Positions 15,918 to 43,758 of a stretch of DNA of 45,700 nt are shown piece by piece. The position numbers and the translations under genes were made by a program. The DNA comes from an uncultured Chlorobiaceae bacterium (lineage in GTDB: Bacteria > Bacteroidota > Chlorobiia > Chlorobiales > Chlorobiaceae). The stretch is from assembly GCA_903887845.1 (NCBI GenBank), contig CAISRC010000040.1:1-45700 (forward strand). The letters run 5' to 3'. The first letter of the stretch is position 1. Each line of letters begins with the position of its first letter. The notes below the pieces were generated by a model that saw only the letters and a program-made list of their open reading frames with translations, had not been told where the DNA came from and ran no database searches.

Positions 15918-16019
15918 TCCAGTAATAGTTTGATGAGCCAATAATCGCAATAGAAGTTCGTTTTTTTGTATTCAAAAAAGAGGTCTCACAGGTTTTCAAC
16001 AAAACAAAGAAAAAAAATT

Positions 16020-17243
16020 ATGGCTGTTGTAGCACAAGAAATATATAACGGTTTACCTGTTACACAATCCCGCAAGGATGACGTAAGGCAGATTCTTCTT
16101 GATGAAGCAAAATTGAGCTTGAATATTACCGAAAAAGGAATTTCGTACGATGCTGAAGAGATAAAGAGGTTTCTGGATCCAATCGAACTCAAGTCTGGAT
16201 TTAATCGCGGGGGCGGAATAACCGGTTTTTCATTGCCGCATGGTTACAGTACAAGGGGGCGTTTTGCTCGCTGGACTCCCTATTCTCTGGTCGTTGAAGA
16301 TGCCCGGCCGGTTTTATATGATGATGGTGCGCGTATTGGAGAAATCATCTTTAACAAGGGTAACCCGGTCTCAGAGCAACTGCTCAGCACCGGTGAAAAA
16401 GTTCGCGATATAACAAATATCAGTGCACAGGGTGGCCTTCATGTCATGTACAGCAATGAGTGTTCATTGAAAGATTTGGGCGAGGACTGCCTGTATTGCG
16501 CCTTTAATGAACGTGCCAAAGATGGCGCTCTCAACAAGGTGCTGTTAAAATCGCCACGGCAGGTAGCTGAAGCGTATGATATCGCTCGCAAGGCAGGAGC
16601 AGCAAACCATTTTCGTATTACCGGCGGGTTCGTTCCTGAACGTCGTGAGCTTGAATACTACCTTGATGTGGCTGATGCCATAAAAGAGAAGTACAGCTCT
16701 TTTTATGGCTGCGCTGTCGTCGGTGCCCCCGCTGATCTTTCTGTTCTTTCAAAGTACAAAGAGGCCGGATTTGCCAATATCTCGACCAATATTGAGGTCT
16801 GGGACAAGAATATTTTCGCAGCCATGTGTCCTGGCAAAGAGAAGCGAAATGGCGGCTGGCAGCATTGGGTTGATGCCCTTGAGTATTCGGTGGAGCTGTT
16901 TGGTAAAGGAAATGTTCATTCAGCAATAGTCGCGGGCCTTGAACCACTGGAATCAACATTGGAGGGTATTGAGTATCTCGCATCAAAAGGGGTGGTTTGC
17001 CATTTCAGCGCATTCCGCCCGGAAAAGGGGACTCCTCTGGAGGGGTATCGGAGTCCGGAAGCAGCATGGCACTGGGAGTTGCTCGACAAAGCAACCGATA
17101 TTTTCCGCCGTTACGGTTTTACCACTCTTCAAATGTATAGCGGAAATGCATCGGGCCCGCATAGTGCACAGTTTTTCCAGATTAAAGCTGGAGAATTCGA
17201 AGGCGATAAACTTGTGCCATGGAAATTTCCGTCGCTTGATTAG
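16020..17243 (+). CDS. Radical SAM protein with CX8CX2C motif (paralogue 1)
   Basis: The protein has 407 residues. Cys148, Cys157 and Cys160 in NECSLKDLGEDCLYC form a CX8CX2C triad, presumably binding the SAM-cleaving [4Fe-4S] cluster. The spacing differs from the canonical CX3CX2C. A domain of about 140 residues precedes the triad. The barrel follows, with RITGGFVPERRELEYYLD (a GGE-like, SAM-binding region) and IEVWDKNIFAAMCPGKEK. The start at 16020 is set by alignment with the next paralogue; an upstream TTG frame at 15966 would add 18 unsupported residues. No strong Shine-Dalgarno sequence is seen. It is followed 50 bases later by a close paralogue. The reaction is unknown. Confidence 0.8.
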   Translation: MAVVAQEIYNGLPVTQSRKDDVRQILLDEAKLSLNITEKGISYDAEEIKRFLDPIELKSGFNRGGGITGFSLPHGYSTRGRFARWTPYSLVVEDARPVLYDDGARIGEIIFNKGNPVSEQLLSTGEKVRDITNISAQGGLHVMYSNECSLKDLGEDCLYCAFNERAKDGALNKVLLKSPRQVAEAYDIARKAGAANHFRITGGFVPERRELEYYLDVADAIKEKYSSFYGCAVVGAPADLSVLSKYKEAGFANISTNIEVWDKNIFAAMCPGKEKRNGGWQHWVDALEYSVELFGKGNVHSAIVAGLEPLESTLEGIEYLASKGVVCHFSAFRPEKGTPLEGYRSPEAAWHWELLDKATDIFRRYGFTTLQMYSGNASGPHSAQFFQIKAGEFEGDKLVPWKFPSLD

Positions 17244-17293: not shown

Positions 17294-18523
17294 ATGGCTA
17301 TTTTGGAAAAGGAACTCACAACAGCAACGCTGGTTGCGAAAAACGATAAAGAGGCCGCAAAGCAGGTTCTTCTTGATGAAGCGAAGCTTGGGTTGTTGCT
17401 CACCGAAAAAGGGATCAATTATGATATTGAAGAGATAAGAAAGTTTCAGGATAAATTTGAACAGAGTTCCTCATATCATCGCCAGAAAGGAGTCACCAAC
17501 TTGACCCTGCCCAATGGCTTTACTGCCCGGTATTTAAGTGGATACAGCCGATATACGCCATATTCGCTTGTTGTTGAAGGTGATGTCGTGGTGCTGTATG
17601 ATGATGGCCGGCGTCTTGGCGTTGTGACGTTTCCAACGACTCATCCTCTCACTGAACAGTTGCTCAGTAGCGGTGAAAAGTTCCGCCATATTGCAAATGT
17701 CAGTGCAGAGGGCGGAATCAGTGTGGCATACAGCTCAGAATGTTCACTGAAAGACAGAGGTGAAGATTGCCTCTTCTGCTCAATCAACGAGCGGGCAAAA
17801 GATGGCGTTTTGAATAAAGTACTCATCAAATCGCCCAAACTGGTTGCGGAGGCATATCATCTTGCGCGTCAGGCTGGAGTGGGGAACTTCTTCCGTCTTA
17901 CTGGCGGCTTTGTTCCTGAACGTCGGGAGCTCGAATACTACCTTGATGTTGCTGATGCCATACGAGAGAGGTACAGCTCATTTTATGGTGTAGGAATTAT
18001 TGGCGCCCCGGTCGATTATTCAGTGCTGTACAAATACAAAGAGGCCGGGTTTAAAAATATCTCTCATAATATGGAGGTGTGGGACAAAAATATTTTTGCA
18101 GCTATTTGCCCGGGTAAGGAGAAGCGTAATTCTGGCTGGCAGCATTGGGTTGACTCTCTTGAGTATGCTGTTGATATTTTCGGAAAAGGAAATGTGCACT
18201 CAAATATTGTGGGTGGATTGGCGCCTTTGGACTCAACTCTTGAAGGTATTGAGTACCTCGCATCAAAAGGCATAGTCTGCCATTTCAGCGTGTTCCATCC
18301 TGAAAAGGGGACTCCGCTGGAAGGGTATCGGAGTCCTGAAGCTTCATGGCATTGGGCATTGCTCGACAAGGCAACCGATATTTTTATCCGTTATGGATTT
18401 ACGACACTTCAAATGTATAGCGGACCTGCTTCTGGCCCACATAGCGGCCAGGTGTTCCAGATTAAAAAAGGAGAATTTGAAGGCAGCAGACTTGCTCAGT
18501 ATAAATATCCATCCCTTGATTGA
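17294..18523 (+). CDS. Radical SAM protein with CX8CX2C motif (paralogue 2)
   Basis: This 409-residue protein aligns with its upstream neighbour over the whole length, indicating a tandem duplication. Cys150, Cys159 and Cys162 (SECSLKDRGEDCLFC) repeat the CX8CX2C triad. Shared segments include FVPERRELEYYLDVADAI, MEVWDKNIFAAICPGKEK and FHPEKGTPLEGYRSPEA. AAAAGGAAA lies about 7 bases before the ATG. It forms one unit with paralogue 1 under the box at 15647. The two may form a heterodimer or act on related substrates; neither can be shown here. Confidence 0.8.
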   Translation: MAILEKELTTATLVAKNDKEAAKQVLLDEAKLGLLLTEKGINYDIEEIRKFQDKFEQSSSYHRQKGVTNLTLPNGFTARYLSGYSRYTPYSLVVEGDVVVLYDDGRRLGVVTFPTTHPLTEQLLSSGEKFRHIANVSAEGGISVAYSSECSLKDRGEDCLFCSINERAKDGVLNKVLIKSPKLVAEAYHLARQAGVGNFFRLTGGFVPERRELEYYLDVADAIRERYSSFYGVGIIGAPVDYSVLYKYKEAGFKNISHNMEVWDKNIFAAICPGKEKRNSGWQHWVDSLEYAVDIFGKGNVHSNIVGGLAPLDSTLEGIEYLASKGIVCHFSVFHPEKGTPLEGYRSPEASWHWALLDKATDIFIRYGFTTLQMYSGPASGPHSGQVFQIKKGEFEGSRLAQYKYPSLD

Positions 18524-18890: not shown

Positions 18891-20153
18891 ATGGCTTATT
18901 CAGGAGACCGTAAAGCGCTGAAAGAGTCGCTTTATAATGAATTGGAACTTCAACTTGATCTTGCGATTCAAGGTATCAGTTTTGATGCTGAGGAGATCGG
19001 AAAACTGAATGCTTCTTTTGCCACTGAACTGTTGAATGCGACACCGGCTTCTCCTTTGGCATTCAATTTTGTCGGTGGAAAAATAAAAGGACCAGGCTTT
19101 GATACCGGTTTTCGTCAGCAAAATAATTCGATCTATGGATTGGAGGCTGAAGAGGGGAATCCTGTCATTTATAAGTATGGAAGAAATAAATCAAGGATTG
19201 GGGAGATTGAGTTTCGTAACAGAACCCGCCATCCATTGCTTGACCTGAAAACACGGGACGGAGTACCGTTTCATACCATCGCCAGTGTGCGCGAGGATGG
19301 TCAGGTGCATGTTAATTACAGTCAGGAGTGTGTGCTGAAAGAGAAGGGCGAGGATTGTTTCTTCTGCAATTACAGCGTCAGGAACGCAACCCTGAAAACA
19401 CCACAGCAGGTAGGGGAAGTTTTTTCAACACTGTATGAAGCTGGTGCTGGCAAACATCTCAATTTGACCAGCGGCTTTTTGTTTGAACGCAAAGAGCTTG
19501 ACTATTACCTCGATGTTGCCGATGAAATCCAGAACCGTACCGGTCAGAAGGAGTTCAGAGCTACAGCAGTGGTTGGGGCTCCGCTTGATTTCAGTGTAAT
19601 CGATAAATATAAAGAGGCGGGCTATTTCAGTATTCGGATGAATATAGAAATCTGGGATAAAAATATCTGGAACACTATCTGCCCCGGTAAACGAAATCAC
19701 TGTGGTGGCTGGGATAACTGGGTAAAGGCGTTGGAATACGCTGTAAATGTTTTTGGAAAAGGTCGGGTGGCCTCGAACATCGTTGGCGGAATTGAACCTA
19801 AAAACTCGATTCTGGATGGAATTGAGTACAAGGCGTCAAAAGGAATTATTGGCTCGGCGTCAACATGGAGAGCAGTCGTCGGATCTGTTCTTGAAGGGCA
19901 TCGTTCTCCGGAAACCGCATGGCACTTTGACTTGCAGCAGAAGATAGCGAGCATTTATAAACGATATGGTTTTTCATTTTCAGACCTGCATAATGTGAGT
20001 CCTTCGGCAGGTCTTGCCACAACCATATATCAGATTGAGCAGGAAGATTTTGATGATAACGGAATATTGACACCATGGCAATACCCTGAGCCTCAGCAGG
20101 TGTTGCAATCAGCTTTGGCAGATGAACCGCACATAATTTATGAAGAAACATAA
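18891..20153 (+). CDS. Radical SAM protein with CX8CX2C motif (paralogue 3)
   Basis: The protein has 420 residues and is a more distant paralogue of the two upstream radical SAM proteins. Cys147, Cys156 and Cys159 in QECVLKEKGEDCFFC give the CX8CX2C triad. The barrel shares FLFERKELDYYLDVADEI, MNIEIWDKNIWNTICPGK and EGHRSPETAWH with the pair. The HFS segment that follows KGIVCHFS in paralogues 1 and 2 is replaced by GSASTWRAV, so the substrate pocket probably differs. The C-terminal tail after residue 395 is acidic and unique. AAAGGAG precedes the ATG. It heads a unit of nine tightly packed genes reaching to 28783. Confidence 0.8.
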   Translation: MAYSGDRKALKESLYNELELQLDLAIQGISFDAEEIGKLNASFATELLNATPASPLAFNFVGGKIKGPGFDTGFRQQNNSIYGLEAEEGNPVIYKYGRNKSRIGEIEFRNRTRHPLLDLKTRDGVPFHTIASVREDGQVHVNYSQECVLKEKGEDCFFCNYSVRNATLKTPQQVGEVFSTLYEAGAGKHLNLTSGFLFERKELDYYLDVADEIQNRTGQKEFRATAVVGAPLDFSVIDKYKEAGYFSIRMNIEIWDKNIWNTICPGKRNHCGGWDNWVKALEYAVNVFGKGRVASNIVGGIEPKNSILDGIEYKASKGIIGSASTWRAVVGSVLEGHRSPETAWHFDLQQKIASIYKRYGFSFSDLHNVSPSAGLATTIYQIEQEDFDDNGILTPWQYPEPQQVLQSALADEPHIIYEET

Positions 20154-20649: not shown

Positions 20650-21546
20650 ATGAAGGAAGCAATCCTTGAAAGAAGCAGTGTTGCTGCGGCAAATGGATAT
20701 GCGGCCCTTGCCTTCAAACTCGATGGCAGTCACAGGGAACCACCTGAATCTTTTGTCAAACGCCCTGTAAAGCTCTCCATCAAGGATCTGGTAATCGGAT
20801 ACCTCGACAAGCAGAGCGGCCACACCATGGTGGCGGTTGATAACGTGACACTTGATATACGCGAAGGGGAGTTTGTGACCATCGTGGGGTTGTCCGGTTG
20901 CGGTAAATCGACATTTCTTAACGCTATTGCCGGCTTGGTAAAACACCAGCATGGTGAAATCAGAGTCAATGATCGAATTGTCACGGGGCCAGGAATGGAC
21001 AGGGCTGTGGTGTTTCAAAAAGCATCACTCCTCCCATGGAGGAAGGTTGGGCGCAATATCACATACGGACTCGAATTGAGCGGAATGAAGCCGGCGGCTG
21101 CAAGAGAAAAAGCCGGTTACTATGTGAACCTGGTGCGGCTCAACGGTTTTGAGGATCATTATCCGCATCAATTGTCGGGAGGAATGCAACAGCGAGTGAA
21201 TCTGGCGCGTGCTCTGGCCTGTGATCCTGAGGTGCTGCTGCTTGATGAGCCGTTTGCTGCTCTGGATGCCATTACTCGTGAACTGATGCAGAACGAGCTG
21301 CTCGAACTGTGCGAAAAAGTTGGCAAGACTGTTCTGATGGTTACGCATCAAATTGACGAAGCGGTACTCCTTTCTGATCGAGTTATCATTTTTTCGTCCC
21401 GGCCGGCTTATGTGCTTGCTGATATACGGATACCTATTGAGCGACCACGTAAAAGCGTCATCAAAGATTCTGAAGAGTTCAGGCGGTTGATGAACGAAAT
21501 CTGGAGAGTTATTGAAGGTAATGCAAATATCGGGGGTGGTATATGA
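20650..21546 (+). CDS. SsuB/TauB/NrtD-type ABC importer ATP-binding protein
   Basis: The 298-residue ATPase has Walker A GLSGCGKST, Q-loop FQKASLLPW, signature LSGGMQQR, Walker B LLLDEPFAALDA and switch His in VTHQIDEA. The LPWRKV and MQQRVNLARALACDPEVLLLD segments are typical of the nitrate/sulfonate/taurine importer group. A 40-residue N-terminal extension precedes the domain. AAGGAA lies before the ATG. Its stop overlaps the permease start by 4 bases. It works with the permease at 21543 and the lipoprotein at 22390. Confidence 0.88.
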   Translation: MKEAILERSSVAAANGYAALAFKLDGSHREPPESFVKRPVKLSIKDLVIGYLDKQSGHTMVAVDNVTLDIREGEFVTIVGLSGCGKSTFLNAIAGLVKHQHGEIRVNDRIVTGPGMDRAVVFQKASLLPWRKVGRNITYGLELSGMKPAAAREKAGYYVNLVRLNGFEDHYPHQLSGGMQQRVNLARALACDPEVLLLDEPFAALDAITRELMQNELLELCEKVGKTVLMVTHQIDEAVLLSDRVIIFSSRPAYVLADIRIPIERPRKSVIKDSEEFRRLMNEIWRVIEGNANIGGGI

Positions 21547-22352
21547 GAAAAGTGACGGTATTTCCAAAATCAAACGAAGTGAAAAGGGAAAAAATTGCAA
21601 GTACGCTCTTGGGTTCAAGCGTTATTCTGCTGTTTTTGATCAGTTGGGAGCTTCTGTTTCAATTCAGGTTTGTCAATCCGCTTTTTATTAGCTCTCCTTC
21701 CCGAGTGGTGCTCGCTTTACTTACAATCATCATGGACGGATCGTTACTTCAAAATCTGATAATAAGCGGCCAGGAGTTTGTTTTTGGATATGGTGTGGCA
21801 ATTCTTCTCGGTTTTCCCATAGGGATCATGCTTGGGTGGTTTAAACTGGTTCGAGCTGCTTTTGGTCCGTTTATTGCTGCCATGCAGGCAACGCCGCGTA
21901 TTGCGCTGATGCCGCTGTTTATTATCTGGTTTGGACTTGGTATCACCTCCAAGATTGTGATTGTGCTTTTGAGCGCCATTTTTCCCCTTATCGTGAATCT
22001 TCAGGTTGCCATGAGCACAATTGACAATGATTTAATCCATGTCGCTCGCGCCTACGGTGCGTCACGCTGGCAGGTATTCCGCAGTATAGCGCTGCCAACC
22101 ACCCTGCCGTTTCTGATAACCGGATTACGGCTCGCCGCCGGACGGGGTCTGCTTGGTGTTATTGTGGCTGAGGTTTTCGGTGGTGCAGCGGGTCTTGGCT
22201 ACATGATTCAGTATGCCGGTTCAACGTTTCAGACCGATAAGGTTTTCGCCGGTGTTCTGGTAGTTGCATTTACAGGTATTACGCTGGATTTTACACTTGA
22301 TCGGCTTGGTCGCCATTTCGATAGATGGCGCGGTGAAGTTGCCGTGCATTGA
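21543..22352 (+). CDS. SsuC/TauC-type ABC importer permease
   Basis: This 269-residue membrane protein has about six transmembrane segments. The cytoplasmic coupling loop reads ARAYGASRWQVFRSIALPTTLPF, the EAA motif of the BPD_transp_1 family as found in nitrate/sulfonate/taurine permeases. It begins inside the end of the ATPase gene and lies 37 bases before its binding protein. The substrate is not readable; sulfonates, taurine, nitrate, pyrimidine precursors and aromatic acids are all carried by relatives. Confidence 0.88.
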   Translation: MRKVTVFPKSNEVKREKIASTLLGSSVILLFLISWELLFQFRFVNPLFISSPSRVVLALLTIIMDGSLLQNLIISGQEFVFGYGVAILLGFPIGIMLGWFKLVRAAFGPFIAAMQATPRIALMPLFIIWFGLGITSKIVIVLLSAIFPLIVNLQVAMSTIDNDLIHVARAYGASRWQVFRSIALPTTLPFLITGLRLAAGRGLLGVIVAEVFGGAAGLGYMIQYAGSTFQTDKVFAGVLVVAFTGITLDFTLDRLGRHFDRWRGEVAVH

Positions 22353-22389
22353 ATGTTTCAAAAAACTATAAATAAAGCAGATAATTGCT

Positions 22390-23370
22390 ATGCAGAGATT
22401 AAAGATCATAAAACTTGTTCCGCTTTTTTTGCTTGCCGTGTTTGTAGCAGGCTGCGCTAAAAAAAATGAGCGACAGGCAAAGGATGGTGTTGAGCAAAAA
22501 ACCCTCGTCAGGTATGCTACAAGTGCGGGAAATCTCCCAATTTCTTTTGGTATAAAAAAGGGTTATTTCGCTGAACAGGGACTTGAGGTGAAAATTGTCA
22601 CCATTACCGGAGGAGTTGAGGCTGTTACTGCCGCAGCGGCAGGGGAGGCTGACCTGGGTGGTATGGGCTCTCCAGTTCTTGTTGGAGCTGTGGCAGGAGT
22701 GCCTATTACCATTATTGGATCACCACCGGCAAATGGCCAGCATTTTATACTTGTATCCAAACCCCAATACAAAAGTTTTGCTGAGTTGAAAGGCAAACCG
22801 GTCAGTCCTGGTGCTCCTGGTCAGGGGACGATTCAGGCATTTAATGTTATTGCAAAAGCAAAAGGGTTCAAGCCATCGGATTTTCAGTATGTGAATGCTG
22901 GTACAAGCGCAAATGCATTGGCTGCATTGCAGGCAGGGAAGGTAGAGGCGGTCATAACGTCGGAAATAGTAGGGGTGAAAGCTGAAATTGAGGGGTTTGG
23001 CAAGATTTTGGAGCATGCCGCCGATTATTTCGGTCACTACCAGCACTCGTTCATTTTTGCAACCAACTCGTTTATCAAGGAAAAACCTGAGGCTGTACGA
23101 GGATTTCTCGCAGCGTATCGAAAAACGGTCGAATATCTCAAAGTCCATCCCGATGAGGCGATTCAGTTCGCTGTAAAAGAGTTGCAACAGGATGAAGTTC
23201 CCTTTAGAAAGGTCAATGAAAAAGAAATTCCCACCTGGGATACCAGTGGAAGAATTGATTTTGCTGGTACCGAACATGCGATTAAAATTTTGAAAGATCT
23301 GGGCGATATTGACCCGAACTCGAAGATTACTGCTCAACAGATAGTCGATGAGCAGTTTCTTCCAAAGTAA
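22390..23370 (+). CDS. NMT1/SsuA-type substrate-binding lipoprotein
   Basis: The 326-residue protein starts with a lipoprotein signal whose lipobox is VAGC (Cys at residue 21). Two alpha/beta lobes follow, typical of the NMT1/SsuA family: RYATSAGNLPISFGIKKGYFAEQGLEVKIV at the start, then GSPVLVGAVAG and KGKPVSPGAPGQGT. Three Cys-free binding loops are rich in Gly and Pro. It completes the first importer. The exporter pair follows 18 bases later without a break, so the whole unit appears co-transcribed. Confidence 0.87.
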   Translation: MQRLKIIKLVPLFLLAVFVAGCAKKNERQAKDGVEQKTLVRYATSAGNLPISFGIKKGYFAEQGLEVKIVTITGGVEAVTAAAAGEADLGGMGSPVLVGAVAGVPITIIGSPPANGQHFILVSKPQYKSFAELKGKPVSPGAPGQGTIQAFNVIAKAKGFKPSDFQYVNAGTSANALAALQAGKVEAVITSEIVGVKAEIEGFGKILEHAADYFGHYQHSFIFATNSFIKEKPEAVRGFLAAYRKTVEYLKVHPDEAIQFAVKELQQDEVPFRKVNEKEIPTWDTSGRIDFAGTEHAIKILKDLGDIDPNSKITAQQIVDEQFLPK

Positions 23371-27038: not shown

Positions 27039-28313
27039 GTGTCTTTCGTGTTGCTAAAAAGAGCCGTTAAGACGGATCTGGATAAAGTGGCGGCACGTTA
27101 TCCGGATGTCCCTCGTCTGATTATCCTCAAAACCGATGTGCAGCGTCGAGGAGTTTTCTATACTGATGCAGCTATCGAACTACTGGATGAAGCGCAGCAT
27201 CAGACTACGGGCACCCATATTTTTGGGGCTCGTGACGGCAGAACGGCAGTTCGTCCCGAGTCTCTGCTCTTGCGGGATGGAACATCGATCATTACCACAC
27301 CAACCCCTATGGAAGAAGATCCTTATGTGGTTGATGTACTGGAAGGAGAGCCCTGGCTTTTCGATAATGGTATGTCGGTAGAGTCAGTTGATTATTGGCC
27401 CGCGCCGGCATATTACGCAAAGAGCTGTCGTTCCGGAGTGCCGATGAAACGTATCGTCAGTGCTCGTCCCCAGCGGTTGAACATTTTCCCATACCGATAC
27501 TGCACCTTCTGGAATGATGCTAAAGGCTGTGCTTTTTGTGATATTGTTGTTCAGCTTAAAAAGGGGCGCGAGGTATTGAAAATTCCGGCAAAACTTGATC
27601 CTGTCGAGGTGGGTGAGGTGATCGGGGAAGCACTTAAGGAGGAGGGGCGTTTTTCGACCATTTTTTTGACCTCAGGCTCTATAACCGGAGGGGTGCGGCC
27701 ATTTGATGATGAAGTCGATTATTATATCGCCCTTCTCAAAGAAGTCGGCAAAAATTTCCGCACGAAAAAGTATCCGAGCCAGATGATCGCAACCGCATTT
27801 GAAAAGGATCAGTTGAAACGGCTTTACGCAGAAACGGGATTGACCAGTTATACCTCCGACATAGAGGTGTTGGACGAGGGTTTGTTCAACCGCTATTGCC
27901 CGGGGAAGTCAGAATGGATCGGTTATCAGGAGTGGAAACGTCGTTTGGTTGATGCTGTCGATGTTTTTGGTCCGGGCAGGGTGAATACCGGTCTTGTAGC
28001 TGGAATTGAACTTGCCGGGCCGCACGGATTCAAAAGCGAGGAAATTGCGTTGGAGCGAACCCTCTCTGAAGCTGAAGATCTTGCCCGGCAAGGAGTCAGT
28101 ACGGTTTTTATCGTCTGGTCGCCCCGTCCCGATACTCCCTTGGGCAGTTACAAGAATGCTTCGCTGGACTATTACATCCGTCTGGCTCGTGGACTTCATC
28201 AACTGCGGGTCAAGTACCGACTGCCTGTTGATCATGACAGCTATCGGAATTGCGGGAATCATCCTGACACTGATCTCTCCAGAGTGTTGCCCCTATGGGA
28301 GGATGAGTTATGA
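27039..28313 (+). CDS. Radical SAM protein with CX8CX2C motif (paralogue 4, divergent)
   Basis: The protein has 424 residues. Cys155, Cys164 and Cys167 in YCTFWNDAKGCAFC again form a CX8CX2C triad, with a separate N-terminal domain of about 150 residues. The barrel shows LTSGSITGG, SDIEVLDEGLFNRYCPGKSEW and VSTVFIVWSPRPDTPLGSY. The IEVxDxxxFxxxCPGK signature is shared with paralogues 1-3, so this is the same family although overall similarity is lower. The GTG at 27039 is used, with GGAG about 8 bases upstream. The stop overlaps the next gene by 4 bases. Confidence 0.8.
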   Translation: MSFVLLKRAVKTDLDKVAARYPDVPRLIILKTDVQRRGVFYTDAAIELLDEAQHQTTGTHIFGARDGRTAVRPESLLLRDGTSIITTPTPMEEDPYVVDVLEGEPWLFDNGMSVESVDYWPAPAYYAKSCRSGVPMKRIVSARPQRLNIFPYRYCTFWNDAKGCAFCDIVVQLKKGREVLKIPAKLDPVEVGEVIGEALKEEGRFSTIFLTSGSITGGVRPFDDEVDYYIALLKEVGKNFRTKKYPSQMIATAFEKDQLKRLYAETGLTSYTSDIEVLDEGLFNRYCPGKSEWIGYQEWKRRLVDAVDVFGPGRVNTGLVAGIELAGPHGFKSEEIALERTLSEAEDLARQGVSTVFIVWSPRPDTPLGSYKNASLDYYIRLARGLHQLRVKYRLPVDHDSYRNCGNHPDTDLSRVLPLWEDEL

Positions 28314-28783
28314 CTGACGAATTACACAAGCGCATTGGTACCCTGCTCGCAGATCCCGGTACAATCGCTACGATTGCAACCCTGGAAGAAAGCGGTGCTC
28401 CTTGTTGTGTTCCGAGTCTTTTTCTCAAGCAGGATGAGTCGGGAATGCTTGTGCATCTTGAACTGCTGGAAACCTCCTCTACCCATCGCAATCTGCTCCG
28501 CAGTATCTGGTTTGATCGTCCGGTTTCTGTTACGCTCAGTGGTCGCGAAAAACAGGTCCTCGTTATTTCAGGACGGCCGCATAAAGCCCTTGTGTCCGGC
28601 TCAATGTTCACCGCCTGCTACCGCGAGGTGCGTTCACGTATGGGTGATGTTGATCTGGCGGCGGTCTGGCTTATAGAGCAACTGCAGATACGTGATGAAA
28701 CTTATCTGATTCGCAAGGCTCAGGAAGAGGCCTTACATCCGTTTTATCAGCATTTGGACCGATTGGTGATTCATCATGAGTAA
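28310..28783 (+). CDS. Second PNPOx-like (FMN-binding split-barrel) protein
   Basis: The 157-residue protein has the split-barrel pattern: IATIATLEESGAPCCVPSLF at the start, a middle strand pair around SIWFDRPVSVTLSGREKQVLVISGRP, and a helical C-terminus. Similarity to the protein at 20174 is limited to the fold. It is translationally coupled (4-base overlap) to the fourth radical SAM gene, which suggests a direct partnership, for instance as an electron donor or in handling the product. It is the last gene of the unit; the next leader begins right after it. Confidence 0.6.
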   Translation: MTDELHKRIGTLLADPGTIATIATLEESGAPCCVPSLFLKQDESGMLVHLELLETSSTHRNLLRSIWFDRPVSVTLSGREKQVLVISGRPHKALVSGSMFTACYREVRSRMGDVDLAAVWLIEQLQIRDETYLIRKAQEEALHPFYQHLDRLVIHHE

Positions 28784-29245: not shown

Positions 29246-30121
29246 ATGAGTGAAAAAACAGGCAAACATATTGCCATCTACGGTAAAGGGGGAATCGGTA
29301 AGTCGACAACAACGTCAAATATCAGTGCCGCGCTTGCTGAGTCTGGTTACCGGGTAATCCAGATTGGCTGTGATCCGAAAAGCGATTCAACGACGATTCT
29401 GAGAGGAGGGAATGATCTTCCGACAGTGCTTGACACGTTGCGCGAGCAGAGCAAACTCAGAATTGAGGATATTTCTGCCATAGGTTTCGGTGGTGTACTC
29501 TGCATCGAGGCAGGCGGACCTGTGCCGGGTGTCGGATGTGCAGGCAGGGGAATCAATGCCGCAGTTGAGCTGCTCCAGGAGCTGAAGCTGTTTGAAGAAT
29601 TTAAACCTGACTTTGTGCTTTACGATGTTCTTGGTGATGTTGTCTGCGGCGGATTTGCGGTACCTATTCGCGATGGTCTTGCAGACCGCGCTTTTGTGGT
29701 AACCTCCTCAGACTTTATGGCGATTTTTGCTGCCAACAACCTTTTCAAGGCGGTCAACAAATATGCGCCCTCTGGTGGAGCGCGTCTTGGCGGAGTTATT
29801 GCCAACAGTATTCTGGCTGCTTATGCACCGGCGCTCATTGATGATTTTGCTGAAAAAACCGGAACACAGGTTATCGGTTATGTGCCACGTTCACTGGTTG
29901 TTGCCCAGAGTGAATTGTATGGTAAAACGGTCATAGAGGCAGTGCCTTTATCAGAACAGGCTCAGGTGTACAGGAATCTGGCTCAATATATCGACAAGAA
30001 TAAAGATTCGGTTATTCCAAAACCACTGAATTCCCCAGAACTGAAAAAGTGGGCCAGAGAGTGGGGCGACAGGATATTTGATGTTGAAACTGGTGTGGTG
30101 CACGAAATGGCCTCTATATAA
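29246..30121 (+). CDS. NifH/BchL-like ATP-dependent iron-protein reductase
   Basis: The 291-residue protein is a P-loop ATPase of the nitrogenase iron-protein superfamily. Walker A GKGGIGKS is at 13-20, and the switch segment GCDPKSDST follows. Cys98 (GVGCAGRG) and Cys134 (GDVVCGGFA) are the two ligands that, from each half of the dimer, hold a shared [4Fe-4S] cluster. Family members donate single electrons with ATP hydrolysis to a D/K-type partner. The partner genes follow directly. It is distinct from true NifH in context: no nifB, nifE, nifN or nifDK with a full ligand set is present. It could be related to methylthio-alkane reductase or tetrapyrrole-type iron proteins; I cannot assign the clade without a tree. 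Confidence 0.88.
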
Positions 30122-30157: not shown

Positions 30158-31570
30158 ATGAGTCCATTACGCGCAAAAGCACCACGCAGCCGCGAAAAAC
30201 GTCTTGATACTCTGGGAGCATGGCTCGGTCCTGTTTCGGCGGCATCAACAGAGTTTGCCGGAGATGAAATTGCTCAACGGATCAGAACCTTTTCCCAGAG
30301 CAGCCATGATGATCTGCTTTTTGCGTTGCGCATTCTGGCAGGTATCCGTGACAGTGTCACTCTTGTTCATGGTCCGCGAGGTTGTGCTGCCGCTGGCCTG
30401 AACCATATTGCGGCCGGAAGCAATACCCGCTGGGCTGTTACCAATCTTGATGAGCGCGACACGATTATGGGGGCAGACAGTAAGTTGCGCAAGAGCGTTG
30501 TCGCGTTGTATCATCGCTATCATCCAGCCGTTGTTTTCATTGTTGGTAATCCGGTGACAGCGATTAATAACGATGATATTCAGTCCGTTGTCGAAGAGCT
30601 GCGTGAAGAGCTGAAACTCCCGATAATACCGGTCTATGTGACCGGATTTTCCTCCCGGAACGCGGTCTCCGGTTACGATACGGTGCTGCATTCCTTGTTG
30701 AAGTATCTTTCAGGCCATATCGTTCCGACGCTTAAAAATGAGACCGTTAATCTTCTTTCAGTTGCTGAACATCCTCAGGACAGAAAAGAGGCTCAGGAGC
30801 TTATAGAGCAACTCGGTATCGAATTGAATGTCATTCCCGATGATTCGACGATTGACGTATTCAGATTGGCCGTTGCAGCCCGCGCATCTATTCCGCTTAG
30901 CCCTGATGCGCCCGAGTATCTTGGTGCAATACTGCATAAAATATATGGAGTGCCGCTCATCGATGTGTTGCGACCTGTTGGTATTGAGGGAACCGGTCGC
31001 TGGCTGAAGTCGATAGCAGCTTTTTTGGGCAAGAAGGATGTTGCTGAAGAGCTTCATGGAAGCAAAGCAGCAGAAACAGTTCGTCAACTTGGTGATTTTT
31101 CCCTGAAAGGAGTCAAGACCTATATATCGTTATCATCAGCCAACGCTTTCAGTGTGCTTGAACTGGTCGAAGAGCTGGGCGGAGAAGTTGCGGGCCTTAC
31201 CATTACGCACCTCGACAGATTGCATGTCCGGCATCTTGATGAGCTTGCCGCACGGCATCCGTCGCTCCAGATTCATGTCTCGGATGGTCAGGCTTTTGAA
31301 GAGATTTCAATTCTCCGCAAACTTGCTCCCGATCTCTATCTGGGTGATTCTACCCATCTTGGTCAGGTAGCCCGCATTGGAATTCCAGTGGTTTCGTTAG
31401 AGTCTCTTGCTATAGTCGGTTACAGAGGTGTTGTCCGTCTGGTTCGACGTCTCAAAACTGCGCTGGCAAACAATTCGTATGGGCACTCTGTGGGCAAGAT
31501 CAATTCAGCCTATCAAGATGAGTGGTTTCGCCGCAGCCACAACTGGCATATAAAGCAGGAGGTCAAATAA
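30158..31570 (+). CDS. Nitrogenase-superfamily component 1 subunit (NifD/K-like), single-cysteine
   Basis: The 470-residue protein belongs to the oxidoreductase/nitrogenase component 1 superfamily. LVHGPRGCAAAG (Cys76) matches the HGPxGC cluster-ligand motif, and TNLDERDTIMGADSKLRKSV matches the segment that is FGGDKKL in NifD. Where NifD has its third P-cluster Cys this protein reads FIVGNPVTAINNDD. Cys76 is the only cysteine in the protein, so no Cys ligand for a FeMo-co-type cluster exists. It should supply one ligand to an inter-subunit cluster with the next protein. An N-terminal 30-residue basic stretch is extra. It lies 36 bases after the H gene and 1 base before its partner. Confidence 0.8.
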   Translation: MSPLRAKAPRSREKRLDTLGAWLGPVSAASTEFAGDEIAQRIRTFSQSSHDDLLFALRILAGIRDSVTLVHGPRGCAAAGLNHIAAGSNTRWAVTNLDERDTIMGADSKLRKSVVALYHRYHPAVVFIVGNPVTAINNDDIQSVVEELREELKLPIIPVYVTGFSSRNAVSGYDTVLHSLLKYLSGHIVPTLKNETVNLLSVAEHPQDRKEAQELIEQLGIELNVIPDDSTIDVFRLAVAARASIPLSPDAPEYLGAILHKIYGVPLIDVLRPVGIEGTGRWLKSIAAFLGKKDVAEELHGSKAAETVRQLGDFSLKGVKTYISLSSANAFSVLELVEELGGEVAGLTITHLDRLHVRHLDELAARHPSLQIHVSDGQAFEEISILRKLAPDLYLGDSTHLGQVARIGIPVVSLESLAIVGYRGVVRLVRRLKTALANNSYGHSVGKINSAYQDEWFRRSHNWHIKQEVK

Positions 31571-31571
31571 T

Positions 31572-32891
31572 ATGGCGCATCATGTGGAAGGATCCCGCAA
31601 CTCATGTGCTCAGCATGGAGCATTGCAGCTCTTTGAGTCAATCGAAGGAGTTATTCCGGTAATACACAGCACTTCCGGCTGCGGTGTACAGCATTATCTG
31701 GGTGTAACACGCCTGACGGGAGGTAACGATCCTTTCGGCAGTCCACCGGTCTCATCCAGCAATATTGCTGAAAAACATGTGGTCTTTGGGGGTAGCTCCC
31801 GTTTGCGTGAGCAGCTAAAAAATACGGTCAAGGTCGTTCGGGGAGACCTTTACGCAATAGTTACCGGCTGCTCGACCGAAATGGTCGGTGATGATATTGC
31901 GGCAATGACCAAAGAGGGTCGTGATCAGGATTGGCCGGTTATTTATGCAAATACCCCCGGATTCAGCGGCGATGTACATAATGGGTATCATCTGGCGGTC
32001 AAAGCATTGATCGAGCAGCTTCCCGGAATCTGGCAGAGTATCGGGGAGAAACAGTCCCGACTGGTAAATGTTTGGGGTATTATTCCTAATCAGGATCCGT
32101 TCTGGAGGGGCAATCTCAATGAGTTGGGGCGATTACTGGAAGGGATTGGTCTGGTTCCCAATCTGCTGATCGGTTCCGGACAGGGTATTGCTTCATGGAA
32201 ACAGCTTCCTGAAGCGGCGATCAATCTGGTTGTCTCTCCATGGGGAGAGTTGCCGGCCAGAATGCTTGAAGAGCTGTATAGCACCCCTTCAATTCAACTG
32301 CAGGGATTGCCGGTTGGCTCTGAGGCAGGGATTCTGCTCCGTAGTCTGACCGAACAGCTCGGTCTTGATCCACTTCGAACAGAATTATTTATAAATCGTG
32401 AAGAAGCACTTTTGAACCATCAATTTGCCCGATTGGCAGACAGCTATTACCGGGCCGGTTTTCAGCGTGAATTTGCATTGGTCGGCGAGTCTTCTCAGGT
32501 TGTTGGTATCAGCGAGTTTCTCGGTAAGTACTTTGGCTTGTTGCCGCGTTCGCTCGTTATCACTGATAATCCGCCCGATATTTTGCGTGAGGCACTGATC
32601 AGCCGTCTATCGGCTATAGTTCCCGGATATGATACTGAGGTGATATTCAGTGAAGACAGATCCGAAATAACCGATGTTGTCAGAAAAGGGGGAGCGCAAC
32701 TCATTCTTGCCAGCAGCCTTGAGCTGGATGTGGCTGTGGAGTCGGGAGTTCCTTTTTTAGCGGTTTCATTTCCGCTTGCTGATCGAATTGTGCTTGATCG
32801 AGGCTACGCTGGCTACCGGGGAGCAACAGCCCTCCTTGAGGATATCGGCAGTGCTCTTCTTGCCTTCAGCAATGGCCGGTATGCATGTTGA
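31572..32891 (+). CDS. Nitrogenase-superfamily component 1 subunit (NifD/K-like), three-ligand partner
   Basis: The 439-residue protein has the three cluster-ligand positions of the superfamily: Cys12 (NSCAQHGA), Cys37 (HSTSGCGVQ) and Cys100 (VTGCSTEMVGDDI). VVFGGSSRLREQL follows the family pattern. The only other cysteine is the C-terminal residue 439. Together with Cys76 of the upstream protein this gives a 3+1 cysteine set, as in chlorophyllide reductase BchY/BchZ. Protochlorophyllide reductase BchN/BchB has 3 Cys + 1 Asp. The pair probably forms a heterotetramer that accepts electrons from the H-like protein. The substrate is unknown. An importer operon follows 76 bases later. Confidence 0.8.
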   Translation: MAHHVEGSRNSCAQHGALQLFESIEGVIPVIHSTSGCGVQHYLGVTRLTGGNDPFGSPPVSSSNIAEKHVVFGGSSRLREQLKNTVKVVRGDLYAIVTGCSTEMVGDDIAAMTKEGRDQDWPVIYANTPGFSGDVHNGYHLAVKALIEQLPGIWQSIGEKQSRLVNVWGIIPNQDPFWRGNLNELGRLLEGIGLVPNLLIGSGQGIASWKQLPEAAINLVVSPWGELPARMLEELYSTPSIQLQGLPVGSEAGILLRSLTEQLGLDPLRTELFINREEALLNHQFARLADSYYRAGFQREFALVGESSQVVGISEFLGKYFGLLPRSLVITDNPPDILREALISRLSAIVPGYDTEVIFSEDRSEITDVVRKGGAQLILASSLELDVAVESGVPFLAVSFPLADRIVLDRGYAGYRGATALLEDIGSALLAFSNGRYAC

Positions 32892-32967
32892 GAGCATCTG
32901 TTTTGAAAATAGAGAGGAGATGATTGAGAAGTATACATAAACCATGCACTATAAAGGGACGGAAATG

Positions 32968-33801
32968 GACATCATCGTAGCAGAGAACGTGCATAAGAAA
33001 TTCAAGCTCAAGCAAGGTCAGCAGGTGAACAACAATGGAATCATATCCGATGAAATAGAGGTTCTGAGCGGGTTTGGGCTGAAGATCAAAAAGGGTGAAT
33101 TTCTGGTGCTTGTGGGGCCGAGCGGCAGCGGTAAGTCGGTTTTTCTTGATCTGGTTGGCGGCTTAAGCGCTCCGACAAGCGGGGTGGTTTACCTTGACGA
33201 TAAACCAGTGGAGGCTCCAAGCGCGAAAACAGGGTACGTCTTTCAGCAGTATGCCCTTTTCCCGTGGAGAAGCGCTCTTTCAAATATTGAATTCGGACTT
33301 GAATCGCGAGGTGTCGTTAAAGAGGAGCGGGTAAAAATTGCTCGGGAGCTCCTCTCCCTTTTCGGTCTTTCTGATTTTGAAGACCGCTTTCCCTACCAGC
33401 TTTCCGGCGGTATGCAGCAGCGGGTTGCCATTGCGCGGGCGCTTGCGACAAAGCCGGAAGTGTTGCTGATGGATGAGCCGTTTGCTGCGCTTGATGCCCA
33501 GACGCGCGAGATTCTCCAGAACGAACTGATCAAAATATGGGAAGGTACCGACACAACTGTGATTTTTGTAACGCACAGCATTGACGAGGCTGTATTTCTT
33601 GCAGACCGGGTTGCGGTCGTTACAGCGCGTCCTGGAAGGATCAAAGATATCATAGAGATTGATCTGCCCAGACCGAGAAAAGTGGATATCAGATCCAGTC
33701 CAGAGTTTGCTGCCAATCGCCATAAGGTTTGGGGTGCGCTCAAGGCTGAGGTAAACAAAGCTCAACAGGACTGGAAACTCGCACCGGTGTTCAGTGAGTA
33801 G
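32968..33801 (+). CDS. SsuB/TauB/NrtD-type ABC importer ATP-binding protein (second importer)
   Basis: The 277-residue ATPase has Walker A GPSGSGKSV, Q-loop FQQYALFPW, signature LSGGMQQR, Walker B LLMDEPFAALDA and switch His in VTHSIDEA. The final Thr/Ser of Walker A is followed by Val instead of the usual Thr, a mild departure. I chose ATG 32968 because AAGGG lies about 7 bases upstream; an in-frame ATG at 32944 lacks such a site. It belongs with the permease at 33834 and the two binding proteins that follow. Confidence 0.85.
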   Translation, partial: DIIVAENVHKKFKLKQGQQVNNNGIISDEIEVLSGFGLKIKKGEFLVLVGPSGSGKSVFLDLVGGLSAPTSGVVYLDDKPVEAPSAKTGYVFQQYALFPWRSALSNIEFGLESRGVVKEERVKIARELLSLFGLSDFEDRFPYQLSGGMQQRVAIARALATKPEVLLMDEPFAALDAQTREILQNELIKIWEGTDTTVIFVTHSIDEAVFLADRVAVVTARPGRIKDIIEIDLPRPRKVDIRSSPEFAANRHKVWGALKAEVNKAQQDWKLAPVFSE

Positions 33802-33833
33802 GTCAACAAATTCAAGAATCAAGGAGAGAGATT

Positions 33834-34700
33834 ATGTCAGAAGAAGTGATTGTTGCTTCGGAAGTCGGATTGAAAAACCGATCTATAGATTTCAGCAGTT
33901 ATGCAAAACATGGTAAGTATCTGCTGAAAGGCTTTAACAAATGGTCGCAAGGAATTCCGCTGGTGCTTGTGTTTTTTTCGATATGGGAGGCGCTGCCACG
34001 GCTTGGAGTTATCGATCCATTGTTTCTGCCTACGTTTTCGACTACGATCAAAACGTTGTTTGATTTGACCGTATCGGGAAAGTTGTTACTGCATGTAGTG
34101 GTGAGCTTGCAAAGGGCATCGGCAGGATTCGGTCTCGCGATTCTGGTCGCCGTACCTCTTGGCTTTTTGATGGGTTGGTACAACAAATTTGAACGATATA
34201 CTGATCTTTTGGTGCAGAGCCTGAGAAACATCTCAACCTTTGCTCTTCTGCCGATCTTTCTTCTGGTATTAGGGCTTGGTGAATCGTCGAAGATTGCAAT
34301 CATTTTTTATGGTGCCAGTTGGCAGCTATTGATGAACACGATAAGTGGTGTCAAGAGTATTGATCCGATTTATATCAAGGCAGCCAAATCGATGGGTGTC
34401 TCAGATTGGGATCTATTCCGGAAAGTTATTCTCCCTGCAAGCATACCCTCCATAATTATCGGAGCAAGGCTGGGCGCGAAGATTTCTTTGATGGTCGTTA
34501 TTGCCGCAGAGATGATTGGAGCCAAGTCCGGACTTGGATTTTTCATACAGAATGCCCAGTTCAATTTTATGGTGCCCGAAATGTATGCAGGGATTCTGGC
34601 ACTCGCCTTTCTGGGCCTGCTGGTTAATTACCTGCTTGTCTGGTTTGAAAAGAAAACAACAAGCTGGAAAGGTGAAATAGGCAGTTCAATTCTTGGATAA
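33834..34700 (+). CDS. SsuC/TauC-type ABC importer permease (second importer)
   Basis: This 288-residue protein has about six transmembrane segments after a 40-residue cytoplasmic N-terminus. The EAA coupling loop reads AAKSMGVSDWDLFRKVILPASIPS. A GGAGAGA ribosome binding site precedes the ATG. It is 32 bases after the ATPase gene and 15 bases before the first binding protein. It is a paralogue of the permease at 21543, but the N-terminal extension and periplasmic loops differ, so the two importers may have different substrates. Confidence 0.87.
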   Translation: MSEEVIVASEVGLKNRSIDFSSYAKHGKYLLKGFNKWSQGIPLVLVFFSIWEALPRLGVIDPLFLPTFSTTIKTLFDLTVSGKLLLHVVVSLQRASAGFGLAILVAVPLGFLMGWYNKFERYTDLLVQSLRNISTFALLPIFLLVLGLGESSKIAIIFYGASWQLLMNTISGVKSIDPIYIKAAKSMGVSDWDLFRKVILPASIPSIIIGARLGAKISLMVVIAAEMIGAKSGLGFFIQNAQFNFMVPEMYAGILALAFLGLLVNYLLVWFEKKTTSWKGEIGSSILG

Positions 34701-34715
34701 CCTGGAGACAAAAAA

Positions 34716-35792
34716 GTGAAAAACATCGGAACGAGGCTCTCTGTTGTGCTCATTGCTCTGGCTATTGCAGCAGTTGGATGGTTTACTCTCAACAAGTCTC
34801 AGTCAAAGGCTGAAAGCATTGCCATTCGGGTGCTTGAATCAACCGCTCCAACGCAATGGGAGCTTGTCAAAAAACTGACTGGTCGAGACATTCTTGACGA
34901 AGAGAATGTAACTCTTGAGCCTGTTCAGAGTGTGCAGAGCGGGGGAGGTACGGTATCGCTTCAGGCTCTTCTGGCCAATAACGTTGATACTGCCGGTTCG
35001 GCATGGCCTGCGTGGATAAATATCATTGCTCATGGCGGGAAAATCAAGGCGCTTCTCGGTACTATCGTATCGACAAAAGAGAACAAGAGCGGTACAAGTG
35101 GCCTGTTGGTTCTTGAGGAGAGCAGCATTCGAACGATCAAGGATCTTGTTGGTAAAAGGATTGCGGTCAACGTGTTGGGTGCTGAGGCGGATTATGTGAT
35201 TCGCCAGTATCTCAAAAATAATGGAGTTTCAATTTCCCAGGTTGAATTGGTGGTTGTGCCATCCGAAAATCAGGAACAGATGCTTCGCAGCAGGCAGGTT
35301 GATGCAGTAGCATGGACAACCAGTGGGGGGCCATATTTTGATATAACTGTTGAAAACGGCGGCGTTCGTGAAATTCCAGGAACAAGAAACTTCGATACAA
35401 AGGGTGAGACGGTACTCTATGGCATCGGTTTTCGCAATGATTTCATCGATAAACACCCTGATGCGGTCAGAAAATATATCAGAGCTTACGATACCTCCCG
35501 GCGGATTTTGTATACCGAGTTTCATAAAAATCCTGATCGGGTAAGGAAAGCTTACGAGGAGATCGCGACAAAGAAGGGAAGTAATCCGCGTATGGCCAGA
35601 TATTATGAAGCCTCAAGCTGGACGCCAAAATTCCCGTTCATTGCTGACAAGGATCTTCAGTGGTGGATTGATCGATTTACCGAGAATGGATTGCTGAAAC
35701 CAGGCCAAATCAGGCCCACTGATATTTATACCAATGAATTCAATCCGTTGTATAAGAAAAATGGTGTTGATGAATCTTTAAACAGCCGATGA
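34716..35792 (+). CDS. NMT1/SsuA-type substrate-binding protein, membrane-anchored (a)
   Basis: The 358-residue protein has a single N-terminal hydrophobic segment (about 8-24) without a lipobox Cys, so it is either a cleaved signal or an uncleaved anchor. The binding lobes show SIAIRVLESTAPTQWELV, IKDLVGKRIAVNVLGAEAD and VVVPSENQEQMLRSRQVDAVAW. GTG is used as start with GGAGA about 9 bases upstream. It is a tandem paralogue of the next protein; they share the LTGRDxLxEExV, VNVLGAEAD and KPGQIxPxDIYTNxFNP segments. Two binding proteins for one permease suggest a broadened ligand range. Confidence 0.85.
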   Translation: MKNIGTRLSVVLIALAIAAVGWFTLNKSQSKAESIAIRVLESTAPTQWELVKKLTGRDILDEENVTLEPVQSVQSGGGTVSLQALLANNVDTAGSAWPAWINIIAHGGKIKALLGTIVSTKENKSGTSGLLVLEESSIRTIKDLVGKRIAVNVLGAEADYVIRQYLKNNGVSISQVELVVVPSENQEQMLRSRQVDAVAWTTSGGPYFDITVENGGVREIPGTRNFDTKGETVLYGIGFRNDFIDKHPDAVRKYIRAYDTSRRILYTEFHKNPDRVRKAYEEIATKKGSNPRMARYYEASSWTPKFPFIADKDLQWWIDRFTENGLLKPGQIRPTDIYTNEFNPLYKKNGVDESLNSR

Positions 35793-35799
35793 TAGCTTC

Positions 35800-36843
35800 A
35801 TGAAAAACATAAAATTTGCAGTTATAGCTGTCCTATTCCTTGTTGTTGCCGCTTCATGGAGGCTTTATTTTCAGACGTCGCGCCATAATAATGAACGCGC
35901 TTTTTCAATAAGGGTAAGCGATTCTTCAGCGCCGAATAACTATGAATTAGCGAAAAAGCTCACAGGGAGGGATGTTCTTGAAGAGGAGAAAGTGATACTC
36001 ACTCCGATCACGATTCAGGGTGGAGGCGGTGGAACGGTAACGATGCAGGCGTTACTGGCAAATAACATCGATGTTGCAGGAGGCTCGATTTCTATATGGG
36101 TAAATGCGGTCAGCAAAGGAGCGAAAGTAAAACTCTTGCTGCCCGGTTCCGTGACAGAGGAACCAGAACATTCCGGTTTGCTGGTTCTTGCAGAGAGTAA
36201 CATTCACACCATCAAAGATCTGGCTGGGAAAAAAATAGCAGTTAATGTGCTCGGTGCGGAAGCTGATTTTATTGTTAGAACTTTTTTGAAGCAGAATGGT
36301 CTGACGGTCAATCAGGTGGAGTTGGTTGTCGTGCCTGCTGAAAATCAGGAACAGGTTTTGCGGAGCCGTCAGGTTGATGCCATAGGATGGACAACCAGCG
36401 GCGGGACCCAATTCGATCGCACGGTTGACCATGGAGGAGTCAGAAGAATTCCTGGTACAAGCAGTTTTGAGACTCGTGGCAATCAGAGTTTACTGACCAC
36501 CAGTGAAGGGTTTTTGGAAAAGTTTATCAAGGCTCATCCTGATGATGTCAGGCGGTATTTGAGAGCTGTCGATAAAGCAAGGCGCATTGTATGGGAAGAG
36601 TATCAGAAAAATCCTGATCGAGTGCGCAATGTCTATGCTGAAATCACGGCAGCAAAAGGGGGTAATCCTGAATTGGCCAAGTATTACCGTGGAGTGCGCT
36701 GGTCGCCGGAACATCAATTGATTACAGACAATGATATACAGTTCTGGATCGAAAAATTTACCGAAGATGGGATTTTGAAGCCAGGCCAAATTAAGCCTTC
36801 TGATATTTATACCAATTCCTTCAATCCGCAGTACAAAAAATAA
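35800..36843 (+). CDS. NMT1/SsuA-type substrate-binding protein, membrane-anchored (b)
   Basis: This 347-residue tandem paralogue of the preceding protein starts 7 bases after its stop. The N-terminal hydrophobic segment (about 5-19) again lacks a lipobox Cys. Shared landmarks are IRVSDSSAPNNYELAKKLTGRD, AVNVLGAEADFIV and VVVPAENQEQVLRSRQVDAIGWTTSGG. The segment facing the likely ligand differs (GGSISIWVNAVSKG against GSAWPAWINIIAHG in copy a), in line with related but different ligands. About 70 bases separate it from the exporter genes. Confidence 0.85.
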   Translation: MKNIKFAVIAVLFLVVAASWRLYFQTSRHNNERAFSIRVSDSSAPNNYELAKKLTGRDVLEEEKVILTPITIQGGGGGTVTMQALLANNIDVAGGSISIWVNAVSKGAKVKLLLPGSVTEEPEHSGLLVLAESNIHTIKDLAGKKIAVNVLGAEADFIVRTFLKQNGLTVNQVELVVVPAENQEQVLRSRQVDAIGWTTSGGTQFDRTVDHGGVRRIPGTSSFETRGNQSLLTTSEGFLEKFIKAHPDDVRRYLRAVDKARRIVWEEYQKNPDRVRNVYAEITAAKGGNPELAKYYRGVRWSPEHQLITDNDIQFWIEKFTEDGILKPGQIKPSDIYTNSFNPQYKK

Positions 36844-43246: not shown

Positions 43247-43341
43247 AGAGTATTGAAGAAACTCTGTCAACGTTTCAATCTTTGTAATGCAGAGATATAA
43301 ATTTCAATCAAAAATCTGATTTCACGTTATAGCCTATTTGC

Positions 43342-43652: not shown

Positions 43653-43758
43653 TTAAAAAATTCGAATCAATTGAACTATGGCAATAGAACGTACAAATTG
43701 TGATTGCAAAATATCCTGACAAGAAAAAATTTATATAACTCAACAATTGGAGTATTCG

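Follow-up and report, generated by a model that had tools for sequence, protein, structure and literature searches.

Introduction

A nitrogenase-like enzyme, IsrBHDK (rcc02234-rcc02237), is required for the use of isethionate as a sulfur source in Rhodobacter capsulatus SB1003 (Morimoto et al. 2024; PMC11423573). Genetic studies in that organism determined that IsrB, IsrH and IsrDK are all needed, and complementation showed that sulfite is released; the isethionate lyase IslAB can substitute for the function of DK (PMC11423573). IsrD has a single cysteine (Cys74), IsrK has Cys12, Cys37 and Cys99, equivalents of NifD Cys275 and His442 are missing, and the cluster cysteines of IsrH are Cys99 and Cys135 (PMC11423573). 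In the published phylogeny isethionate reductase (Isr) forms its own clade close to methylthio-alkane reductase (Mar) within Group IV (PMC11423573). Mar has both a P-cluster and a cluster of the composition [Fe8S9C] (PMC12552129). The DNA discussed here is a stretch of 45,700 nucleotides (contig CAISRC010000040.1, positions 1 to 45,700) from an uncultured Chlorobiaceae bacterium, referred to as the window. In this green sulfur bacterium it forms a large island of genes for sulfur scavenging. It encodes a nitrogenase-like D and K pair that is very probably the catalytic component of an Isr-type nitrogenase-like sulfonate reductase. This assignment is based on the published cysteine hallmark, the clade in which both subunits fall, the residue numbers of proxy sequences, the IsrB-type genes and the sulfonate-type ABC genes.

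The D and K subunits and their cysteine residues

The three genes that make up the HDK set are as follows.

29246..30121, forward strand: IsrH-like reductase of the NifH family, 291 residues, with the P-loop GKGGIGKST, cluster cysteines Cys98 and Cys134, and a match to Pfam Fer4_NifH (2.1e-98)
30158..31570, forward strand: IsrD-type catalytic subunit, 470 residues, Cys76 only; Asp51, Pro132, Ser248 and Ser398 replace lost ligands
31572..32891, forward strand: IsrK-type catalytic subunit, 439 residues, with invariant Cys12, Cys37 and Cys100, a Cys439 that is not conserved, and the family motif RLREQLKN at residues 77-84

The D and K genes are separated by one base and both lie downstream of the H gene. 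Their products are nitrogenase component 1 proteins of the Oxidored_nitro family (Pfam PF00148; 1.1e-66 and 3.9e-65, respectively). A preliminary description of this DNA had reported one cysteine in D and four in K, three of the latter at ligand positions and one terminal, and the reading frames and positions are exactly as it gave them. D Cys76 aligns with Cys91 of Rhodospirillum rubrum MarD (reference PDB 9FMG), which corresponds to NifD Cys88 and is the middle P-cluster cysteine of NifD and MarD. Cys12, Cys37 and Cys100 of K align with MarK Cys32, Cys56 and Cys121 and with all three P-cluster cysteines of NifK. The other ligands of MarD are replaced in the alignment: Cys66 by Asp51, Cys158 by Pro132, the cofactor ligands Cys270 and His429 by Ser248 and Ser398, and Arg428 by Asp397; an equivalent of MarD Trp195 is also missing. 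The window pair thus does not carry the NifDK ligand set for a P-cluster and an iron-molybdenum cofactor, but its four conserved cysteines suffice for one inter-subunit [4Fe-4S] cluster, as had been proposed.

Conservation of these positions was scored in 42 D and 46 K proteins, gathered both within the genus of the window and from named genomes, the latter contributing 76 loci. The Cys76 column is cysteine in 42/42 D relatives and the Cys12, Cys37 and Cys100 columns are cysteine in 46/46 K relatives, at identities down to about 32-35%. Because the set is retained without exception among such diverse relatives, it is more than chance. Cys439 of K is present in the window as first described, but its column is cysteine in only 5/46 relatives, and this poor conservation rules it out as a fifth ligand. 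In many comparisons K is better conserved than D. In a metagenome-assembled genome of Chlorobiaceae (locus L112, 6290-7702) isrD is broken into two open reading frames by a frameshift or stop.

The position of the lost cofactor cysteine is freely variable. Where the window D has Ser248, the 42 relatives have Asp (19), Asn (8), Cys (7), Ser (4), Phe (3) or Lys (1). The serine is encoded by codon 248 at 30899-30901, and the column is cysteine in close Chlorobium and Geobacter orthologues, for example at loci L058, L060, L062, L066, L067 and L070. The orthologues with this cysteine still have no Mar-type partner histidine. The variability of the column and the missing histidine together argue that a cofactor cysteine ligand is not a trait of the family. 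The earlier statement that the cofactor cysteine is absent therefore holds for the window, which also has no Mar-type histidine, but not for all relatives.

The site of the lost first P-cluster cysteine behaves differently from this variable position. Asp51 is conserved in 39/42 D proteins and the next residue is Asp or Glu in 42/42 (Asp51-Asp52 are encoded at 30308-30313). Since an Asp serves BchB as a cluster ligand (PMC11423573), Asp51 is a possible candidate for an additional oxygen ligand of the cluster. An Arg rather than an Asp was reported at this column in PMC11423573, and the two alignments differ at that site.

Phylogenetic placement

The 29 single-cysteine D proteins in the tree form one clade (support of 99 in the Shimodaira-Hasegawa-like approximate likelihood ratio test, SH-aLRT) that lies beside but outside Mar, and the 31 partner K proteins do the same (SH-aLRT 100); the window D and K fall inside these clades. 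The concatenated D-K pairs also place the Isr clade outside Mar (SH-aLRT 98). All trees were quick searches with SH-aLRT as the only support measure, and from the concatenated tree, in which the Nif sequences aligned poorly, only the Isr and Mar groupings were taken. Members of the Isr clade come from Chlorobiaceae, Geobacter, Rhodopseudomonas, Rhodoblastus, Cereibacter (K only), Paenibacillus, Treponema (D only), Lachnospiraceae and others. Within it the window pair belongs with the sequences of Chlorobiaceae and Geobacteraceae, and this sub-clade lies well apart from the alphaproteobacterial one.

Relatives of the R. capsulatus Isr were sought in up to 395 genomes of its family and only Cereibacter ovatus was found. 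The proxies of R. capsulatus show the published numbering, with Cys12, Cys37 and Cys99 in K of C. ovatus and Cys74 in D of Rhodopseudomonas rhenobacensis. The isr locus of C. ovatus (L099, 8763-11356) looks broken, as the H match ends at residue 182 and K follows directly with no D. The 1+3 cysteine set is not new; PMC11423573 had already described it as the hallmark of IsrDK. The preliminary description had taken the pair to be novel, and this part of it is overturned, as the phylogeny places the pair inside a described clade. Its separation of the pair from nitrogenase and Mar is borne out by the ligand columns, by the position outside the Mar clade and by the neighboring genes described below.

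A search for relatives of the pair among viral contigs found none, and the two full-length plasmid matches are both Mar. Further deep clades of D/K pairs exist on the Mar side (loci L096, L101 and L105, also L098, L100, L109 and L111). These occur as two neighboring sets in Methanoperedens, Geobacteraceae and Bryobacterales, and they have the cofactor cysteine but not the Arg428 and His429 of Mar.

Predicted structure

A model was obtained for the D-K pair of Geobacter sp. OR-1 (L067), whose D and K are 75% and 73% identical to those of the window, using 33 aligned sequences. D and K of this organism lie in one frame, and the stop codon between them was read as Gly to give a single chain. The mean predicted local distance difference test score (pLDDT) is 81 and the predicted template modeling score (pTM) is 0.60, and residues 459-478 at the artificial junction have a pLDDT below 50. 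For the K half the match is MarK (Z 43.4). For the chain as a whole it is NifEN in its naturally fused form (PDB 9i0g), a heterodimer that aligns over 786 residues in both halves with a root mean square deviation of 4.3 Å and Z 33.6. The modeled arrangement of D and K is nitrogenase-like, and the four aligned cysteines should therefore meet at the P-cluster/O-cluster site. Because K keeps three cysteines and D gives one, the cluster would occupy the K-side half of this site, as a mirror image of BchYZ, BchNB and NifEN.

IsrB-type radical SAM genes

Three genes of the window belong to the radical SAM family that lies directly beside HDK in most relatives.

15966..17243, forward strand: IsrB-type radical SAM protein, copy 1, with a CX8CX2C motif, placed by NCBIfam variant_rSAM (1.8e-107) and by a tree
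17294..18523, forward strand: IsrB-type radical SAM protein, copy 2, 68% identical to copy 1
18891..20153, forward strand: IsrB-type radical SAM protein, copy 3, 42% identical to copy 1

The basis for naming them IsrB-type is the family to which they belong and their position. The closest orthologues of copy 1 lie immediately upstream of H in loci L060 and L084, and the CX8CX2C motif is found in 65/65 family members. An IsrB-type gene is present within the fetched stretch at 34/43 Isr loci, and for the remaining loci 6/6 genomes checked carry such genes elsewhere, mostly as tandem copies. The three copies in the window are the only IsrB-type genes of the host genome, apart from a distant radical SAM protein at 27039. 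Two to six paralogues accompany a single HDK set in Chlorobiaceae (L071, L072, L076, L113 and the window), with three in the window and six in L076. The copies of these arrays are distinct sub-families under strong purifying selection, with ratios of nonsynonymous to synonymous substitution of 0.03-0.07. Between L071 and L076 orthologous array members are 89-93% identical, with ratios of 0.03-0.06, whereas D and K are only 73-75% identical.

The radical SAM gene at 27039 has its own partner.

27039..28313, forward strand: rSAMd, a second radical SAM family, with CX8CX2C and a match to variant_rSAM (7.5e-52), in a clade separate from IsrB (support 100)
28310..28783, forward strand: small protein paired with rSAMd, with no Pfam or NCBIfam match; the pairing is kept in relatives

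The small protein appears PNPOx-like from a reading of its sequence only. rSAMd is common near isrHDK, yet it is not beside HDK in some of the closest orthologues. This absence and the separate clade rule it out as the IsrB partner.

The sulfur island and the host genome

The remaining sulfur genes of the island are a homocysteine synthase and two importer sets.

14287..15594, forward strand: O-acetylhomoserine sulfhydrylase/homocysteine synthase (NCBIfam TIGR01326, 4.4e-186, above the cut-off)
20650..23370, forward strand: ABC importer set 1 of the sulfonate/nitrate/taurine type, with an ATPase (20650), a permease (21543) and an NMT1/SsuA-type binding protein (22390)
32944..36843, forward strand: ABC importer set 2, directly after K, with an ATPase, a permease and two SsuA-family binding proteins

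The sulfhydrylase is probably a sulfide sink. In importer set 1 the binding protein matches Pfam NMT1 (1.4e-28), and the ATPase and permease match those of set 2 by BLAST. The closest NCBIfam models for set 2 are TauB/SaoA, SaoP/TauC and SsuA_fam. Sulfonate-type ABC genes occur at 30-31/43 Isr loci. Genes of the MarB or NifX type are found around only 1/43 Isr loci, one that adjoins a Mar operon, compared with MarB at 13/32 and NifX at 12/32 comparator loci; this scarcity is in keeping with an enzyme that has no cofactor of the [Fe8S9C] type.

Elsewhere in the host genome a siroheme sulfite reductase-like gene lies beside a CysH-like gene and there is a gene pair of DsrAB size, all named from sequence and size, not by family search. 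The genome also has four component 1 genes that fit BchN, BchB, BchY and BchZ, and a further group of four component 1 genes whose members fit nifDK and nifEN.

MsbA-like ABC exporters are encoded in two pairs, one on each side of HDK (23389-26999 and 36912-40530), and relatives in Chlorobiaceae retain them. A TatD-associated radical SAM protein (TIGR04038) is encoded at 40850-41473, between the second exporter pair and two genes for HGD-D family proteins. The latter, with a BadF/BcrA-type ATPase, form a set of the double-cubane reductase type (HgdD/HgdC) at 41867-45607 that adjoins the island. HgdC-type genes are also near HDK in loci L069, L072 and L113.

Alternative explanations

Several features weigh against the assignment to Isr. 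The link to the tested R. capsulatus enzyme goes through proxy sequences, so orthology is indirect. The IsrB-type genes of the window are 9-13 kb upstream of H, whereas IsrB is directly upstream in R. capsulatus. The matches of importer set 2, including those of its binding proteins to SsuA-family models, are below the curated NCBIfam cut-offs, and the convergence of the cysteines is predicted from homology and the NifEN fold match. A substrate other than isethionate is a serious possibility, a little short of an even one. The Chlorobiaceae and Geobacteraceae members of the clade may use taurine, sulfoacetate, aromatic sulfonates, other organosulfur compounds or a mixture, as suggested by one island with two Ssu-type importer sets, three binding proteins and three IsrB-type genes, by the distance between the window sub-clade and the alphaproteobacterial one, and by the distinct, maintained sub-families of the IsrB copies. 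Substrate determinations were found only for R. capsulatus among clade members, however, and sequence divergence alone gives no reading of specificity.

The same loci could be explained by enzymes outside Isr. NifEN is the whole-chain fold match and likewise has one [4Fe-4S] cluster between its subunits, which would fit a maturation or assembly scaffold rather than a catalyst. This is improbable, as only one of the Isr loci has MarB/NifX-type cofactor genes nearby, the cofactor cysteine of NifE is not in the window D, and a lyase can replace the function of DK in R. capsulatus (PMC11423573). Among solved structures MarDK come closest (2e-43 and 4e-81) and the clade adjoins Mar, yet it is highly improbable that the pair is a divergent Mar whose metal site has degenerated. 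The pair is outside the Mar clade with strong support, MarD Cys66, Cys158, Cys270, His429, Arg428 and Trp195 are all lost, and Isr loci have a different radical SAM family and no MarB/NifX; the trees and ligand columns rule out membership in Mar despite the best PDB matches. A tetrapyrrole reductase is suggested by the green sulfur bacterial host and by the single [4Fe-4S]-sized ligand set, as in chlorophyllide reductase (COR) and dark-operative protochlorophyllide reductase (DPOR). BciD acts on bacteriochlorophyll e. It is also the nearest Swiss-Prot protein to IsrB (PMC11423573). Such a role is hardly credible, because the host already has its own fitting BchN, BchB, BchY and BchZ genes, homologues occur in non-phototrophs, among them Paenibacillus, Geobacter and Lachnospiraceae, and the gene context is that of sulfur uptake. 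The ligands sit on the opposite subunit from those of BchYZ, and this distribution rules out a COR-like arrangement; the likeness to chlorophyllide reductase in the preliminary description stands for the number of cysteines but not for their placement.

Proposed mechanism and significance

For an Isr-type sulfonate reductase, the gene families and the R. capsulatus precedent suggest that sulfonates would be taken up by the adjacent Ssu/Tau-type importers. IsrH, judged by its family and conserved motifs, would pass electrons to the DK cluster in an ATP-powered reaction. This cluster is predicted to be one [4Fe-4S] between the subunits, held by D Cys76 and K Cys12, Cys37 and Cys100 on the K side of what was the P-cluster site. 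The complex and an IsrB-type radical SAM protein would then cleave the C-S bond of a small alkanesulfonate reductively and release sulfite, a step with genetic evidence in R. capsulatus only. The sulfite reductase-like, CysH-like and DsrAB-size genes and the homocysteine synthase of the island suggest that sulfite may be reduced to sulfide and incorporated. Either the core or the radical SAM partner could break the C-S bond, given that IsrB is genetically essential in R. capsulatus, and the family-wide data sharpen this question. The preliminary description held that the active site must bind a substrate or another cofactor directly. This is possible, but "must" overlooks the radical SAM partner IsrB, with its three copies in the window.

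A further reading, offered tentatively and in its full form rather unlikely, is that Isr has the core of a nitrogenase in mirror image, with its electron path and active pocket on the K side. One HDK set in Chlorobiaceae and Geobacteraceae would then be a shared ATP-driven electron source for exchangeable IsrB enzymes, one for each sulfonate, and the radical SAM array would set the substrate range. It is suggested by the greater conservation of K, by the number of IsrB paralogues per HDK set and the purifying selection on them, and by the array members of L071 and L076 being more alike than their D and K.

Two things are new here: the occurrence of the Isr family in Chlorobiota, and the frequent association of one HDK set with two to six IsrB paralogues on which purifying selection acts. 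Isr-type genes were found in six genomes of the window's genus, including the host, among 148 Chlorobiota genomes searched, one of them with two copies, and also in Geobacteraceae. Isr-type sulfonate reduction thereby extends to the green sulfur bacteria, whose phylum is not among the main carriers named in 2024; those were Bacillota, Spirochaetota, Pseudomonadota and Myxococcota (PMC11423573). Two papers on freshwater and photoferrotrophic Chlorobia make no mention of sulfonates (PMC5498476, PMC8125076). Many of the carriers in the present set are Chlorobiaceae that have been seen in metagenomes and not in culture. The sulfite reductase-like and CysH-like genes of the host hint at life at low sulfide, where scavenging of sulfonates would pay. 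More generally, the Isr family lets anaerobic bacteria obtain sulfur from organic sulfonates.

Comparison with known systems

BchYZ and BchNB resemble the window pair in having a single inter-subunit [4Fe-4S]-sized ligand set and no cofactor ligands. They form a deep, separate clade, and in them three cysteines are on the D-like subunit (BchY or BchN) and the partner ligand is Cys in BchZ or Asp in BchB, whereas the window pair is reversed with three on K. NifEN shares the heterodimer fold and a single [4Fe-4S]-sized set between the subunits. Its arrangement is 3+1: in the alignment NifE also keeps three cysteines and the partner ligand is Cys in most NifN, while the window has three on K and one on D. 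NifEN also differs in having the L-cluster ligand cysteine and a scaffold function. MarHDK of Rhodospirillum rubrum (PDB 9FMG, 9D9U) is the nearest solved structure and the neighboring tree group, and it cleaves C-S bonds, as is proposed for the window pair. The six P-cluster cysteines, the [Fe8S9C] cluster held by Cys270 and His429, and the MarB partner are absent from the window pair. Compared with the Isr of R. capsulatus, the window has a Chlorobiota host and three IsrB-type genes that lie farther upstream, and it adds the rSAMd pair, the exporters and the double-cubane-type genes. By the published description and the proxy sequences, the two share the H-D-K order, the 1+3 cysteines at the same positions, the loss of the cofactor Cys and His, an IsrB-type radical SAM protein, sulfonate ABC importers and a position next to Mar.

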